10,000 bases of DNA, taken from Asticcacaulis sp. (lineage in GTDB: Bacteria; Pseudomonadota; Alphaproteobacteria; Caulobacterales; Caulobacteraceae). The notes under the pieces are model-generated. The model worked only from the letters and a program-made list of their open reading frames with translations, was not told the DNA's origin and searched no databases. Positions 1 to 8,555 of this stretch are shown here, piece after piece; position 1 is the stretch's first letter; the number at the start of each line of letters is the position of its first letter. The stretch spans positions 1 to 10,000 of the forward strand of contig NZ_JAIWNX010000036.1 of assembly GCF_020217185.1 (NCBI RefSeq), in the 5' to 3' direction. The translations under genes and the position numbers were made by a program.

Positions 1-1161
1 TGGGCGGGACTGTTGCGCGAGGCGCACGCGCAAACCGCTGACGGCGAAGCCGCGCGGACAAAGCTGCGGATCATTCTCGAAAAACTGCAACCCCCGGCCG
101 ACGACGAAGCGCGCTGGCGCAGGGCCATGGTGCAGGACATTATCACGGCCGCCAGTGACTATCTCGCGCTTCGGCCGACACATGACCCGGCGCGGGTCCC
201 CAGATCGAACCGGACCGTATCGTCCATGCTGGATGGCTATTTCGCCAACCCACCAAAAGCCACCTCCGGCAGCACCCTTAAGCAGTATCTGAAGGTCCGC
301 CATCACATTGACCGGCGCTTCGGGCCGGAAGACGTCAAGAGCCTCACGCGCGGGCAGATACGCCTCTGGTACGAAGATCTGATCGAAACGCGCAGCCTGT
401 CTATGGCAAACCTGATCACGGCCGCCCTTGGCGCGGCCTATAGCTGGGCCATGCTGAACGATTGGGTATCCGACTCGCCCTGTACGAAGCTGAAAAAGGC
501 GCAACCGGAAGGGCGGATCATGATCTGGCCTTTTGCCATCGAGTCGGCCTTTGTTACATGGTGCGACGAAAACGGCTTCGAAGACGTGGCCGACGCCGTA
601 GTCACCGGATGCTACACAGGCGCAAGCCAGATTGACATGTGTACCCTGCGCCTGGGCGACTTCAACAGCGACATATGGCGCTTCCGGCGCGTCAAGACAA
701 AGCAGGAGGCCGTCGTCGCATGGCTACCGCAGGTCCGCGCGCGCGCCGAGCGCCGACGTCAGGCCCTCGCCTCAGACGGCATAAACTACATCACGCCGGA
801 CGTTGCACCCTTCCTCTTCCGTCGCGGCGAACTCACACGCGGCCCGCACCATAGCAAGACGATAGGCGAGCGCTACCGCGAGGCCCGCACGGCCGTCATG
901 GCACAGGTCCGCATAGGCGACCTGCCGGAACTGGTGACGCTGCATGAACTGAACCTGTCCGATACGCGCGATACCTGCGTCACGCGCCTGTTCCTCGCCG
1001 GTATCCCGCTGGACAGAATTCCCCTCTGGACGGGCCATAGCCAGAGGGACGCCGAGCGCATACTGCGCAGGCATTACCTGATGCTTACCGAGGAAGGTGC
1101 GCAAGAGACAGCGGCCCTTTATGAGCGCTACGCGGCCGTGCAAAACCTTGCCCTGAAATGA
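1..1161 (+). CDS. Tyrosine recombinase / phage-type integrase, 5' end outside window
   Basis: A site-specific DNA recombinase of the alphaproteobacterial phage-integrase type. The frame is open to the first base; the first in-window start is a TTG at 13 with no convincing ribosome-binding site, so the true start probably lies upstream. Numbered from that TTG, residues about 65-155 look like the SAM-like core-binding domain (the 'STLKQYLKVRHHIDRRFG' region) and about 170-370 the catalytic domain. Visible catalytic residues are Arg319 (in SDTRDT), His342 (TGHS) and the nucleophile Tyr355 (RRHYL, followed by an acidic helix typical of the group), with a likely beta-hairpin Lys in VKTKQ. The box I arginine, expected in YTGxR, is Ser205 here (YTGASQ), and the usual His of HxxR is a Ser. 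Activity may therefore be reduced or lost. Its place beside a repeat-rich intergenic region fits the edge of an integrated element, but no att duplication is visible in the window. Confidence 0.85.
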   Translation, partial: WAGLLREAHAQTADGEAARTKLRIILEKLQPPADDEARWRRAMVQDIITAASDYLALRPTHDPARVPRSNRTVSSMLDGYFANPPKATSGSTLKQYLKVRHHIDRRFGPEDVKSLTRGQIRLWYEDLIETRSLSMANLITAALGAAYSWAMLNDWVSDSPCTKLKKAQPEGRIMIWPFAIESAFVTWCDENGFEDVADAVVTGCYTGASQIDMCTLRLGDFNSDIWRFRRVKTKQEAVVAWLPQVRARAERRRQALASDGINYITPDVAPFLFRRGELTRGPHHSKTIGERYREARTAVMAQVRIGDLPELVTLHELNLSDTRDTCVTRLFLAGIPLDRIPLWTGHSQRDAERILRRHYLMLTEEGAQETAALYERYAAVQNLALK

Positions 1162-4531: not shown

Positions 4532-4562
4532 GCCTCCAGCTTCACGGGCTGGAGGCACTTTT
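4532..4562 (+). terminator. Intrinsic terminator after the small secreted protein gene
   Basis: GCCTCCAGC (4532-4540) pairs with GCTGGAGGC (4548-4556) around a 7-base loop, followed by ACTTTT. A run of A residues precedes the stem. It sits 24 bases after the stop codon. Confidence 0.88.
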
Positions 4563-4807
4563 AATTCAACCTTTGAAAATCTCTTGGAACCAAACAAAAA
4601 GCCGGAACCTACAGATTTTTAACCTTTATCTATACTCAGATTTACAAAGAAATATTTATATGTGGATTGACAACCTTCATTTGAGAAATTTTTTTAAAAA
4701 TGTAGCGAGCGGGATACCGCAGATTCGAAATCATTCCATGAACAGTATATTCCAAAAGACCATTCGCTATAATAAATAAATTATAATTAAAATATATAAA
4801 TTAAATA
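4563..4807. other. AT-rich stretch without a supportable gene
   Basis: These 245 bp lie between the terminator and the end of the minus-strand membrane-protein gene. They are AT-rich, most strongly from about 4765 to 4807, where nearly every base is A or T. A plus-strand frame (4573-4779, TTG start) has no ribosome-binding site and a product with no recognisable domain. No hairpin with a U-run is obvious for the minus-strand operon. Together with the adjacent AT-rich gene it looks like one block of foreign composition ending near 5057. Confidence 0.6.
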
Positions 4808-5056
4808 CTATATCGTACGTTTATTTTTAACCCCAAACCCAAACCACACTAACGCAACACCAGAAATAACCATTGAAAAATAAATTTTCAACAGGTCGGG
4901 ATTATTTCCCAATTGGGATTGCTCAAAAAGCTCACTCAACGCATTGCCTCTTAATGCGTAGTAAATAAAAAATATACAAACGGCTATGGGAAAAACAATC
5001 AATATTGTCCCGATTATTATTAGAAGCCCTGCAACAAGTCTGTTTATTTTAATCAT
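4808..5056 (-). CDS. Small two-helix membrane protein, last gene of the ABC operon
   Basis: An unrecognised 82-aa protein with two predicted membrane helices, about residues 8-33 (LVAGLLIIIGTILIVFPIAV) and 56-75 (LKIYFSMVISGVALVWFGFG), joined by a short polar segment and ending in a basic tail (KNKRTI). It starts only 7 bases after the permease stop codon, with AGGG on the coding strand 6 bases before the ATG, so it is very likely co-transcribed and possibly translationally coupled. Composition is unlike its neighbours: I counted 39 G/C in 120 bases (4861-4980, about 33%), against about 63% in a sample of the permease. That points to horizontal acquisition. The role is unknown; an accessory or immunity-type membrane protein is conceivable but unsupported by any motif. 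Confidence 0.65.
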   Translation of the reverse strand: MIKINRLVAGLLIIIGTILIVFPIAVCIFFIYYALRGNALSELFEQSQLGNNPDLLKIYFSMVISGVALVWFGFGVKNKRTI

Positions 5057-5063
5057 ACCAGCC

Positions 5064-6452
5064 CTATCCGCGCGACAGTCCCATCAGAGCCTTCCAGCTA
5101 AACTTGCCGCCGCCCAGCGCGCCCTGCTTGAAGGCGCGGGCCCCCAGCCGGATCATCAGCCACGCCATGGCCCCCATGCCGGCCAGTGTCGCCAGAACCT
5201 CCCACCACGGCGCGCCACCCAGAACCCGCAGCGGCATCAGGAAGGGCGTAAACAGCGGCACCCACGACAGGTAGCGGATCAGCGGCAGGTCGGGCGACAT
5301 CAGCGCCGCCTGAAGGCTCATCATCGGGATCATCAGCACCACCACGATCGGCCCCATGATCGCCTGCGCCTCCTTCTGCGTCTCACAGAAGGAACCTATG
5401 GCGATAAAGGTGATGCCGTACATCAGATAGCCACCGACAAAGAACAGCAGCATGGGCACGATCGTCTCGACCTTGAGGATGGCTCCGGCCAGCACGTGCA
5501 CATTGTTCATCATATCCGGCGGCATAAAGGCCAGTCCGTAGCCCATAATACCGCCGGCCACCGCGCTCCACAGCCCGGCCACCGTCAGCAGGACCATGAA
5601 CACACCCAGCACCTTGCCGACCAGCAGGCTACTGGCCGGGGCCGAGGTCAGAAGCACCTCCAACACACGCGACGATTTTTCTTCGATCACCCCCGACAAC
5701 AGGATGACCGAAGACGAGAAAATCGACATCCAGGTGAGGTAGCTGAGGACAATCCCGACAAAGTGCGGGCCGTTTTCTTTAAGCGACTCGGTAAAGGACG
5801 CCTTGTCATCGGCGCCCGCGGCGGCAATGGCCGGGGTCAGGCTGCTGATCTCGGCCCGCGCCTCACGCAAGGCGGTGGCGACCTGCGGGTCCACGCCCTT
5901 CTGTTTGGCCAAATAGGCCGATTGCAGGGCGTGCAGGTCCCAGCGCAGATAGTCTTCCAGCGACTTGCCCTTGGTCTGCGACGACCACAGGTGGAAGGCC
6001 AGATGCGGTTCGGGCGTCTTTTCGACATAGGCGACGATGACGTTGTCAACGCTGCGTTTTTCCGCCTGCATCAGTTGCGACAGGCGCGCCTCGGCCGCCG
6101 CCAGCGTCATGTCCGGCGTCAGCCCCTCCGGCAACGGGACGGCCTGATAGTCACGGCGACTGGCCATCTGGCGCAGGGCCTGACGCGCCGAAACGCTGGG
6201 GGCCGCCTCGTGCAGGGCGGCGACGGCGGGATCGGGACGATCCAGCAACGCCTGCAAAGACGGGGTCAGGTTTTCGCCGCTGAGGTCGAGTATGGCGACC
6301 CGGCTGGCCTCTTCGCCACCGCTGCGGCTCATCAGTATGGGGATAAACACCGATCCGGCCATCAGTACCGGCAGGACCAGCAGGGACAGCCAGAAACCGA
6401 CCGTCTTGACGAAGGCGAGATATTCGCGGCGCGCGATCAAAAGCGTCTTCAT
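5064..6452 (-). CDS. ABC-2 type transporter permease, NatB/YhaP-like
   Basis: A 462-aa membrane subunit of an ABC exporter, the partner of the ATPase encoded upstream. The topology is that of the NatB/YhaP branch. There is one helix near the N-terminus (about 17-40), then a large extracytoplasmic domain (about 41-228), then a cluster of helices: about 231-254, 278-307, 330-352, 364-385, 391-411 and 416-436. The coupling segment 'GVIEEKSSRVLEVLLTSAP' (about 254-272) is the family's conserved motif between the second and third helices. Characterised relatives export sodium ions or other small toxic compounds; the substrate here cannot be read. The start at 6452 has GGAG 7 bases upstream and its ATG overlaps the stop of the preceding 117-aa gene (ATGA). 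The length is usual for the family and no frameshift is seen. Confidence 0.92.
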   Translation of the reverse strand: MKTLLIARREYLAFVKTVGFWLSLLVLPVLMAGSVFIPILMSRSGGEEASRVAILDLSGENLTPSLQALLDRPDPAVAALHEAAPSVSARQALRQMASRRDYQAVPLPEGLTPDMTLAAAEARLSQLMQAEKRSVDNVIVAYVEKTPEPHLAFHLWSSQTKGKSLEDYLRWDLHALQSAYLAKQKGVDPQVATALREARAEISSLTPAIAAAGADDKASFTESLKENGPHFVGIVLSYLTWMSIFSSSVILLSGVIEEKSSRVLEVLLTSAPASSLLVGKVLGVFMVLLTVAGLWSAVAGGIMGYGLAFMPPDMMNNVHVLAGAILKVETIVPMLLFFVGGYLMYGITFIAIGSFCETQKEAQAIMGPIVVVLMIPMMSLQAALMSPDLPLIRYLSWVPLFTPFLMPLRVLGGAPWWEVLATLAGMGAMAWLMIRLGARAFKQGALGGGKFSWKALMGLSRG

Positions 6453-6463
6453 GCCGGTTCTCC
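6449..6463. repeat. Direct repeat copy 1: SD-start-stop junction at the permease start
   Basis: On the coding strand this reads GGAGAACCGGCATGA: the Shine-Dalgarno sequence and ATG of the permease, overlapping the TGA of the 117-aa gene. It is identical over 15 bp to 6799-6813, and the identity stops at both edges. Confidence 0.9.
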
Positions 6464-6802
6464 CTTGGCCACATTTTTAGCTTTAAGCAGATCAGCGAGC
6501 CATGGCGGATCAGCATCGAAAGTAGCGTAGTAGATTATGAAGTCCCGAACTTGTGCGTCGTCTAGTTCGTAGCGAGCCGCCGCTTCACACAAAACATCCA
6601 TATCCGCCTTATCCAAGACGTAAGAATAACCCTCACCTTTCCAGTCGGCGACGTGATCTGTGCTATCAAAAATCTTGGCTACAGCCTCTGCTGTGAATGG
6701 TGACTGCGCTACTATGGTATAATCCCATTCTGTCTGGCGACCGATTTGAATGGCTTGCGCCAACGAGAGCGTCTCGGCGCGCTGAAATCCAACCGGGCTC
6801 AT
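6449..6802 (-). CDS. Unrecognised 117-aa protein inserted between ABC ATPase and permease
   Basis: A soluble, acidic, probably cytosolic protein with no signal peptide, no membrane helix and no motif I can name. Residues about 9-45 and 64-110 look mainly helical, separated by a polar segment (SYVLDK around 60-65). The C-terminal half carries 'RDFIIYYATFDADPPWL' (about 86-102). The start is set by GGAG 7 bases before the ATG. Both ends overlap neighbours by 4 bases (ATGA): its start overlaps the ATPase stop and its stop overlaps the permease start. It ends KGEPA, echoing the ATPase ending GGEPA, because both gene ends lie in copies of a 15-bp repeat. GC is lower than in its neighbours (91 of 180 bases at 6481-6660, about 51%). 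I infer a horizontally acquired cargo gene co-translated with the transporter. Whether it works with the transporter is unknown. Confidence 0.75.
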   Translation of the reverse strand: MSPVGFQRAETLSLAQAIQIGRQTEWDYTIVAQSPFTAEAVAKIFDSTDHVADWKGEGYSYVLDKADMDVLCEAAARYELDDAQVRDFIIYYATFDADPPWLADLLKAKNVAKGEPA

Positions 6803-6813
6803 GCCGGTTCTCC
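6799..6813. repeat. Direct repeat copy 2: SD-start-stop junction at the ATPase end
   Basis: The coding strand again reads GGAGAACCGGCATGA. Here it encodes the ATPase's final Gly-Glu-Pro-Ala and stop, and supplies the ribosome-binding site and ATG of the 117-aa gene. It lies exactly 350 bp from copy 1. Confidence 0.9.
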
Positions 6814-7728
6814 GCCATTGGTGAGGACGATAAAGGCGTCGTGCAGGGTCGGCTCATGCGCTTCGAAGCGGCGCACATCCAGCCCGCCGACCAGCACCGT
6901 CTTCAGCGCCTCATTGGGCGTCACGCCGGGCAGGAAGCGCAGACGCCAGCGATGCGTGCCCTCTTCGCCCGCACCGCCGTCGATCACTTCGGACACGCCG
7001 GGCAGACCCGTAACCTGCTCACGGTTCAGCACGCCCTCCAGCTCCAGATAGCGCGGTGCGCGTTCGCGCGCCTGACGCAGTGTGCCTTCGAACACCTTGC
7101 GCCCCTTGGTCAGCATGACGACGTTTTCACACAGGCGCTCGGCATGGGCCATGACGTGGGTGGAAAACAGCACGGTCGCGCCCCGCTTGGCCAGGTCGCG
7201 GATCATGTCCTCCAGCCCCTGCTGATTGACCGGATCGAGCCCCGAAAAGGGTTCATCGAGAATGACCAGCTCCGGTTCGTGGACCAGACAGCCGATCAGT
7301 TGCACCTTTTGCGACATGCCCTTCGACAGGGACTTGATCGGCTTATACATAAATTCGCCGAGGCCCTGCGCCGTCAGAAGCTCAATGGCCCGTTTGCGCG
7401 CCGCCGAGGCCTTCATACCCTTCAGCCCGCCCAGAAAGACGATCATGTCCACCGGCGACATCTTGCGATACAGACCGCGTTCTTCGGGCAGGAAGCCGAT
7501 GCGGTCGAGCACCTTGGCGCCCTCACCGCCCAGCACGGTGATGGTACCGGCGCTCGGCTGCGACAGGCCCAGCATCATGCGCACGCTCGACGTCTTGCCC
7601 GCCCCATTCGGCCCCAGAAAGCCGCAGATAGAGCCGCGCGGCACGCGGAAGCTCAGATCCTGCACCGCAGCGAAGTCGCCGTAATATTTGCTCACCCCCT
7701 CAAGACTGAGGGCATAGTCGGACGCCAT
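6799..7728 (-). CDS. ABC transporter ATP-binding protein, NatA/YhaQ-like
   Basis: A 309-aa cytoplasmic ATPase subunit that powers the ABC-2 permease encoded downstream. Motifs: Walker A GPNGAGKTS (residues 39-47), an atypical Q-loop FLPEERGLY (79-87) with Glu in place of Gln, signature LSKGMSQK (134-141), Walker B LVILDEP (154-160), D-loop GLD (163-165) and switch His191 in STH. LSKGM and PEERGLY, rather than LSGGQ and a Q-loop Gln, are as I recall normal for the NatA/YhaQ branch, so they are not defects. The C-terminal roughly 90 residues form the accessory domain seen in this branch (the ending EPTLHDAFIVLT is typical). AGGGGGA lies just upstream of the ATG at 7728, fixing the start and first gene of the operon. 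A possible -35 TTGACC is at 7773-7768 on the minus strand, without a convincing -10. The last bases overlap the next gene's start. Confidence 0.93.
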   Translation of the reverse strand: MASDYALSLEGVSKYYGDFAAVQDLSFRVPRGSICGFLGPNGAGKTSSVRMMLGLSQPSAGTITVLGGEGAKVLDRIGFLPEERGLYRKMSPVDMIVFLGGLKGMKASAARKRAIELLTAQGLGEFMYKPIKSLSKGMSQKVQLIGCLVHEPELVILDEPFSGLDPVNQQGLEDMIRDLAKRGATVLFSTHVMAHAERLCENVVMLTKGRKVFEGTLRQARERAPRYLELEGVLNREQVTGLPGVSEVIDGGAGEEGTHRWRLRFLPGVTPNEALKTVLVGGLDVRRFEAHEPTLHDAFIVLTNGGEPA

Positions 7729-8069
7729 ACGGTCCCCCTTTTGTTGAAGCGCAATCTCTCACGCGCCGGTCAAGGGCGCAAGGCCGTGCTGGGGATAAGG
7801 GGCTGCGGGCGTTGGAAAAGCATAAGACACATTGCGGACACGTCAGGACGGCCTCAGGGGTGCCCCCGGTTCTGTAAGCGCCCGATGCGGCTCTGAGGCG
7901 TTGCGGGCGCAAAACGGCAAAAATTGAGCGCCTTTTTACGCCGGGCATAAAGAAGATAAGCCGCGGCTAAGGGCGGGGCCGGGCTTTGCAAGGGCGGCAA
8001 AATTGAGAAACCGGCGCGGAGGTGACAGAGTCAGGACCAGAGTTTCACCCCCACCTCCTGAGGATCATC
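7729..8069. promoter_or_regulatory. Divergent intergenic region, ABC operon / secreted protein gene
   Basis: 341 bp without a supportable gene, holding the promoters of two divergent units. Visible items are a near-identical pair CGGCAAAAATTGAG (7915-7928) and CGGCAAAATTGAG (7995-8007), about 80 bp apart in the same orientation; a 10-bp palindrome AGCCGCGGCT (7959-7968); and a weak minus-strand -35-like TTGACC at 7773-7768. The repeated element could be an operator or a promoter element, but nothing identifies a regulator. A minus-strand frame (7700-7948) crosses the region and overlaps the ATPase start; I regard it as a chance frame. Confidence 0.45.
8018..8058 (+). promoter_or_regulatory. 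Long-loop inverted repeat in leader of secreted protein gene
   Basis: GGAGGTG (8018-8024) is complementary to CACCTCC (8052-8058), which lies directly before the GAGGA ribosome-binding site at 8060-8064. Pairing would place a 7-bp stem with a 27-base loop next to the ribosome-binding site. It may affect translation or may be coincidental. Confidence 0.35.
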
Positions 8070-8555
8070 ATGACCCGCCTTCTCACCACCGCCGCCACCG
8101 CCGCCTTCCTGCTCGTCGCCCCGACGGCCTTCGCACAGGACATGCCCAGCCAGACGAACGCCATGCCGCAAACCGGCGCGACGCAAGACCCCGCGACGCA
8201 AGACCCGATGACGGCCAAAAGCGAAAGGCAGGCCCCGACGGCCAAGCAGGACCGCAAGTCGCAGAACGCCGCCACCGCTGAACTGAACGCTCAGTCCCTG
8301 CGCGCCGCTCAGGCCGCTGACGTCTCGACCGAGGCCAGCACCACAACCAGCGCCCCGGCCCCGGACACGCGAGCGATGCCGACCATGGGCGATCCGGCTC
8401 AGCCGACGCAACCAGCCACCGATCCGATGCAGGACCCGTCCAACCCGGCCCCGACGACCAATGAACCGCAGGCGGGCGACCCCAATGCCCCGGTGCCGCC
8501 CCTGCCGCAAACCGATGAGCCGGTCACCAGGGACCAGCCGACGACCAATCAATAA
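8070..8555 (+). CDS. Secreted Pro/Thr/Gln/Ala-rich low-complexity protein
   Basis: A 161-aa protein of unknown function. I start it at the ATG at 8070 because GAGGA lies 5 bases upstream and it opens a clean signal peptide (MTRLLTTAATAAFLLVAPTAFA, cleavage after Ala22). An in-frame GTG at 8022 would place 16 residues before the signal and lacks a ribosome-binding site. The mature protein has no Cys, no hydrophobic segment and no recognised domain. It is intrinsically disordered in composition, with repeated QDP, ATQ and PAPT/PTT motifs and many Asp and Pro residues towards the C-terminus (PVPPLPQTDEPV). Periplasmic or surface location is inferred. It is monocistronic and shares the downstream terminator with the convergent gatB. 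It resembles the 149-aa secreted protein at 4058-4507 in style but not in sequence. Confidence 0.78.
   Translation: MTRLLTTAATAAFLLVAPTAFAQDMPSQTNAMPQTGATQDPATQDPMTAKSERQAPTAKQDRKSQNAATAELNAQSLRAAQAADVSTEASTTTSAPAPDTRAMPTMGDPAQPTQPATDPMQDPSNPAPTTNEPQAGDPNAPVPPLPQTDEPVTRDQPTTNQ
8178..8206 (+). repeat. Tandem repeat encoding ATQDP twice
   Basis: GCGACGCAAGACCC occurs at 8178-8191 and 8193-8206 (period 15 bp), coding for two consecutive Ala-Thr-Gln-Asp-Pro units. The DNA copies are identical, suggesting a fairly recent slippage or duplication in a disordered region. Confidence 0.8.

Follow-up and report, generated by a model that had tools for sequence, protein, structure and literature searches.

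The window, by which we mean the whole stretch of 10,000 nucleotides analysed from Asticcacaulis sp. (genome G000), carries on its minus strand an operon in which the gene for an ABC ATPase is followed by an ORF of 117 aa and then by the gene for an ABC-2 permease (Table 1). The ATPase also matches TIGR01188 at 3.1e-58, below the cut-off of that model. At both gene junctions lies the same 15-mer, GGAGAACCGGCATGA, in which an SD-like GGAG, a 7-nt spacer and an overlapping stop/start ATGA follow one another.

Table 1. Features of the transporter operon, with positions in the window
Feature	Position	Strand	Basis
ABC transporter ATPase, 309 aa	6799..7728	-	Pfam ABC_tran 4.6e-24, DrrA1-3_C 2.8e-06
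Junction copy 1: GGAG SD, 7-nt spacer, ATGA; ATPase stop and inserted-gene start	6799..6813	-	Exact match
Unique inserted DNA, 335 bp, 51% GC (flanking genes 64%)	6464..6798	-	Absent from relatives' loci, alignment gap, GC
Inserted 117-aa ORF, pI 4.3, near-orphan; start and stop both from junction copies	6449..6802	-	
Junction copy 2: inserted-gene stop and permease SD-start	6449..6463	-	Exact match
ABC-2 type permease, 462 aa	5064..6452	-	Pfam ABC2_membrane_3 6.5e-42

An earlier note on this DNA had pointed out that the same 15 bp stand at both ends of the 117-aa gene, 350 bp apart, and that they hold the SD, the start codon and the overlapping stop of the preceding gene, and both statements agree with the sequence. 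In particular, the ATPase (GGEPA) and the 117-aa protein share GEPA as their last residues before the stop, and the 117-aa ORF and the permease each start at the ATGA within one of the two copies. The identity extends over exactly 15 bp, since both the preceding base (C versus G) and the following base (G versus A) differ between the two copies, which are still identical in G000. The duplicated span begins with the first SD base and closes with the final base of the overlapping stop, and it is the smallest piece that holds the whole SD, start and stop signal. Exactly two copies occur in the window, with no further match at up to three mismatches; in 200 shuffles, the mean number of matches at up to three mismatches was 0.41, and at least two were found in 14 of them. 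RNA folding at both junctions was no stronger than in shuffles, and a hairpin, AACCGG...CCGGTT, that reaches from the first junction into the beginning of the insert was dropped for the same reason.

The permease directly follows the ATPase, without the insert, in all 18 of the other loci of the genus that were examined. These loci come from the 19 genomes that match the ATPase at 1e-80 among 25 genus genomes, the window's own included; the six of the 24 others with no such match lie outside the comparison. At the uninterrupted junction, one exact copy of the 15-mer is present in G007, G004 and G018, whereas 14 of the 15 bases are identical in G006 and 13 in G015, and the remaining 13 loci have other sequences. 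Exact matches to the 15-mer are confined to this junction throughout the 25 genomes: G000 has two, G004, G007 and G018 have one each, and the other 21 genomes contain none. The comparison of orthologous ATPase-permease loci that the earlier note had proposed has therefore returned what an insertion should leave behind, an uninterrupted pair joined by a single exact copy.

The sister genome G007, whose ATPase is 99% identical to that of the window, aligns with window positions 5060-6463 and 6799-7766, and in G007 the two pieces share 15 bp. The same overlap, leaving 335 bp of the window without a match, was obtained against G006, and an alignment gap at the insert is seen also against G018 and, with one edge shifted by 35 bases, against G004. 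The shift in G004 is probably caused by a stretch of 19 bases near the start of the insert that is 79% like the start of the permease gene. The net gain in G000 amounts to 350 bp, namely the 335 bp of unique DNA and one extra 15-bp junction, and the insertion, its polarity, the exact duplication of 15 bp and the empty site are shown by the comparisons. G000 is a draft assembly of 320 contigs, and a large protein search returned one cluster, P0001, which derives from other contigs, is 97% identical to the 117-aa protein over its full length and shares its MSPVGF start and KGEPA end; judging from this sequence match, P0001 would argue against a one-off misassembly.

The tree of the ATPase and permease proteins pairs G000 with its sister G007 (94/89) within a group that also holds G018, G006 and G004, and the 117-aa gene occurs only in G000. 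It follows that a single gain in the G000 lineage after its split from G007 is the simplest history, and the picture drawn in the earlier note, of an ancestral coupled junction entered by a gene with duplication of the junction, is supported by both the empty sites and the tree. The composition of the insert fits a foreign origin, the GC3 of the inserted ORF being 0.50 compared to 0.80 to 0.84 for the two transporter genes. Moreover, a homologue of the protein is found in only two of 390 family genomes, the window's own included, and the locus of the other one is different; the conservation in distant relatives that would have spoken against an insertion was looked for and not seen. The insert thus combines a foreign composition with a patchy distribution, either of which would be expected of a gene gained by an operon in one lineage. 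The same empty site would also arise, exactly as observed, if a three-gene operon were ancestral and the relatives had lost the middle gene by precise deletion between the 15-bp repeats. However, several independent precise losses would then be required on the tree, the more distant genomes of the genus have other junctions and lack the gene, and the GC and GC3 of the insert differ from those of its neighbours, which makes an ancestral three-gene operon very improbable.

The similarity of the two junctions might, in principle, reflect functional constraint on independent SD-ATGA signals. To set the repeat against other junctions, we scanned about 2.4 Mb of DNA, made up of about 1.08 Mb of G007 C2, 1.08 Mb of G006 C2 (most of it), 20 contigs of G000 and the window. 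ORFs of at least 50 codons were called mechanically, many of them being likely spurious, and orthologues of the two genomes were counted apart. The scan yielded 1118 ATGA junctions. ATGA stood at both ends of 70 frames, among which the identical run was 15 bp in one case (the present one), 9 bp in two, which are orthologues in the two genomes and hence one frame counted twice, 7 bp in three and 4 to 6 bp in 64. A pairwise comparison of the junctions of ORFs of 80 codons or more, made for each replicon separately (14,706 pairs in G007 C2 and 11,781 in G006 C2, 26,487 in all) gave 9 bases as the longest identity upstream of ATGA, whereas 11 bases are identical here, a length reached by none of the pairs. 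In favour of convergence, both signals are under constraint, and GGAG is found exactly at -11 in 3 of 172 junctions of G007 C2 and 7 of 154 of G006 C2. Against it, the relatives carry exactly this 15-mer as their only copy, and independent convergence is already refuted by this identical empty site. The view of the earlier note that convergence is unlikely has been borne out, and convergence can be considered excluded for practical purposes.

The suggestion in the same note to search for other genes flanked by copies of their own junction had a different outcome: among the remaining 69 doubly ATGA-bounded ORFs of the 2.4 Mb, no second case was found, and a recurrent process is unsupported. The comparison of G007 C2 with G006 C2 listed 40 small insertions or deletions, eight of which show an overlap of at least 8 bp; the seven of these that were inspected comprise five inexact repeats and two exact ones (8 and 10 bp), none of them containing ATGA. 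In 26 of the 40, the inserted sequence has at least six matches in the scanned DNA and thus is or contains a repeat. The 20 contigs of G000 added almost nothing to the alignments with the G007 and G006 stretches, and the comparison between G000 and G007 rests on the window, because all events listed in these alignments of G000 come from it.

On these grounds, we propose, with a probability of roughly 0.84, a recent capture of a foreign gene that proceeded with a 15-bp target duplication, did not involve a transposon and was kept by virtue of the rebuilt coupling. About 335 bp of foreign coding DNA would have entered the ATGA junction of the ATPase-permease operon in the G000 lineage, after the split from G007, and 15 bp of the target, the span that opens with the SD and closes with the overlapping stop, would have been duplicated in the event. 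Junction copy 1 would then form the end of the ATPase gene and the start of the new ORF, and junction copy 2 the end of the new ORF and the start of the permease gene. As to how the DNA was captured, break repair or replication without a transposon is most likely, whether through the filling-in of staggered ends or through template switching. No donor of the insert was found, so that the breakpoints on the donor side cannot be placed.

A direct target duplication that flanks unique DNA, with a 15-bp overlap at the empty site, is formally the signature of a transposon as well, and a transposase acting in trans could have placed a non-autonomous element of 335 bp, such as a MITE, within a 15-bp target-site duplication. 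A 10-nt inverted pair of 90% identity, at 6492-6501 and 6776-6785, would fit such an element, even though it lies 28 and 13 bp inside the ends, and none of the nine inverted-repeat pairs detected is located at the ends of the insert. The DNA of the insert is single-copy in the roughly 2.4 Mb scanned and unrelated to the interspersed repeats found there, its protein occurs once in its own genome, and neither a transposase nor a family match was obtained. Moreover, the whole element would be one ORF dependent on the start and the stop of its target. We therefore regard a transposon or MITE as a rather improbable source, and retain capture during break repair or replication.

Two accounts can be given of why the duplicated span coincides so exactly with the coupling signals. 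According to the first, the coincidence would be one of survivorship, with only those insertions tolerated that keep both signals. According to the second, GGAG and ATGA themselves would have acted as microhomologies where copying switched to and from the donor. A donor operon gene that starts with ATGA and is followed by GGAG could pair with the target ATGA on the left and with the target GGAG on the right, and since GGAG lies 11 bp upstream of ATGA, such pairing would duplicate exactly the segment from GGAG to ATGA and give a coupled three-gene operon in one step. Attractive as it is, we hold the microhomology account to be unlikely, because there is no donor, no second case and no similarity at the edges above that of shuffles. 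A longer homology as guide of the insertion was tried and rejected: for the start of the insert against the start of the permease gene, 66 of 500 shuffles scored as high, and for the other end of the insert against the end of the ATPase gene, 143 of 500 did, so that the edge similarity is not significant and no longer homology guided the insertion.

The overlap ATGA is a known arrangement for coupling by termination and reinitiation, as stated in a portion of PMC6728339. A stop/start overlap of this kind together with an SD, by which a coupled pair is recognized, is present at both junctions of the operon. Ribosomes that end the ATPase would restart on the inserted gene, and those that end the latter would restart on the permease gene; from the sequence of the junctions, we infer that the three genes should be translated as a termination-reinitiation chain and that the inserted protein is likely made. 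Such an outcome would readily be kept by selection, because the ATPase and the permease are unchanged and still linked, the duplicated SD-ATGA having rebuilt both coupled junctions.

The 117-aa protein is nearly an orphan. Its one distant homologue in the genus, in G020, shows 34% identity over residues 7-102 and is encoded by a free-standing gene of 97 aa and 31% GC at a different locus, between two genes that appear, by eye from their translations, methyltransferase-like. A search with a three-row profile returned two proteins, the second of which is letter for letter the G020 protein, and this is identical to a hypothetical protein of Asticcacaulis sp. ZE23SCel15. In the alignment, the G020 homologue begins near residue 12 of the insert and stops soon after W101. 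Thus, with just two sequences compared, the first and last residues of the inserted protein, including GEPA, are probably not ancestral to the family, which would fit a start and a stop supplied by the target, on what is thin evidence. Both members of the family are acidic (pI 4.2 in G020).

No credible match for the 117-aa protein was obtained in Pfam, NCBIfam, PADLOC, PHROGs or among the folds of the PDB. Scans of genome contigs and viral contigs gave no confirmed relative, and plasmids and phages no match to the insert, in collections from which records very near the genome of the window may be absent. Two weak profile hits at the level of the order, in G650 and G473, lie in long open frames and are treated as chance; the one that was inspected (L040) reads by eye as an outer-membrane receptor. 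For its role, an accessory or immunity-type function of a small acidic protein is the leading guess.

Gain of DNA is seen at the 3' end of this operon as well. About 500 bp directly after the stop of the permease gene (window 4562-5060) are AT-rich and strain-specific, with an ORF of 82 aa and 34.5% GC on the minus strand (4808-5056), two-pass membrane by eye, for which the 24 other genomes of the genus gave no match. In G007 (L027 8268-9260), this site holds the final portion of an Rhs core, with an Ntox50 toxin domain (E 5e-10), and then an ORF of 109 aa, and in G004 and G006 only 12 and 73 bp separate the end of the permease gene from the next segment that aligns with the window. With such a toxin context, an immunity-type role for the 117-aa protein is thinkable. 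Truncated Rhs-core matches were noticed also in G000 (L163 2432-2533), G004 (L165 1022-1138) and G006 (L167 2038-2166), where they begin 3 to 30 bp past the stop of what is, by eye, the same gene of 252-254 aa and are followed by downstream ORFs that differ by eye; the 3' side of this gene may be a fixed site at which orphan Rhs tips land.

Other strain differences lie elsewhere in the window. Positions 2053-2150 are a copy of an interspersed repeat of about 98 bp, resembling two hairpins, which is present at that place also in G007 and absent there in G006; the repeat is common in these genomes, the first 920 kb of G007 C2 giving 22 matches and G006 C2 giving 11, and the window shows no Rfam match. 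The segment 7766-8599, which includes an ORF of 177 aa on the plus strand (8022-8555), is missing in G007, where about 47 bp stand instead, and aligns in G004, G006 and G018. At the contig edge, positions 1-1161 (plus strand) encode the C-terminal part of what reads, by eye from its translation, as a tyrosine-recombinase-like integrase; the G004, G006 and G007 stretches do not align with this part, and the stretch of G018 ends short of it.

The entry of a gene into the middle of a coupled operon is rarely visible, junctions usually decaying afterwards. Here, the sister genome supplies the exact site before the insertion, and the two junction copies have not yet diverged. A single event, it is real, recent and unusually easy to read, and it offers a clean, probably one-off example of gene gain by an operon. 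If the microhomology account is true, SD-ATGA junctions would serve naturally as adapters by which operons capture genes, and, were this to hold generally, it would account for the joining of orphan genes to operons that are already set up for expression. Since the duplicated segment is the smallest one with SD, start and stop, a concrete prediction follows, namely that the coupling signals are used as microhomology.

In lambdoid phages, as in the ninR region, short conserved boundary sequences are found at gene junctions. Such sequences at the boundaries of modules have been proposed, in a section of PMC3029335, as places of recombination, and to the extent of that section the present repeat is alike in being a short sequence at a module boundary. 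However, the best pair among ten starts compared in a stretch of lambda is identical at 12 of 15 positions, compared to 15 of 15 here, and a lambdoid linker recurs at several junctions, whereas the 15-mer is confined to one locus in 25 genomes, which points to a target duplication rather than a shared linker. With transposable elements, the insert has in common the direct target repeats around it and the single copy at the empty site, and it differs from them in that no inverted repeats at the ends, transposase or other copies were found. The orphan immunity genes of polymorphic toxin systems, as characterized in excerpts of the literature on them, resemble it in encoding small, acidic and patchily distributed proteins; an immunity gene of such a system would be expected next to its cognate toxin, whereas the neighbours of the insert are an ATPase and a permease, and no sequence or fold match to immunity families was found for the 117-aa protein. 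We recognized no description of a duplicated coupling junction of this kind in the open-licence literature. In the operon life cycle of Price and colleagues (2006), orphan or horizontally transferred genes are reportedly acquired into existing operons. The present case is alike in that a foreign, near-orphan gene enters a native operon and comes under the transcription of that operon, and it is different in that the exact empty site is available and the coupling signal itself has been duplicated, so that both junctions should remain coupled.
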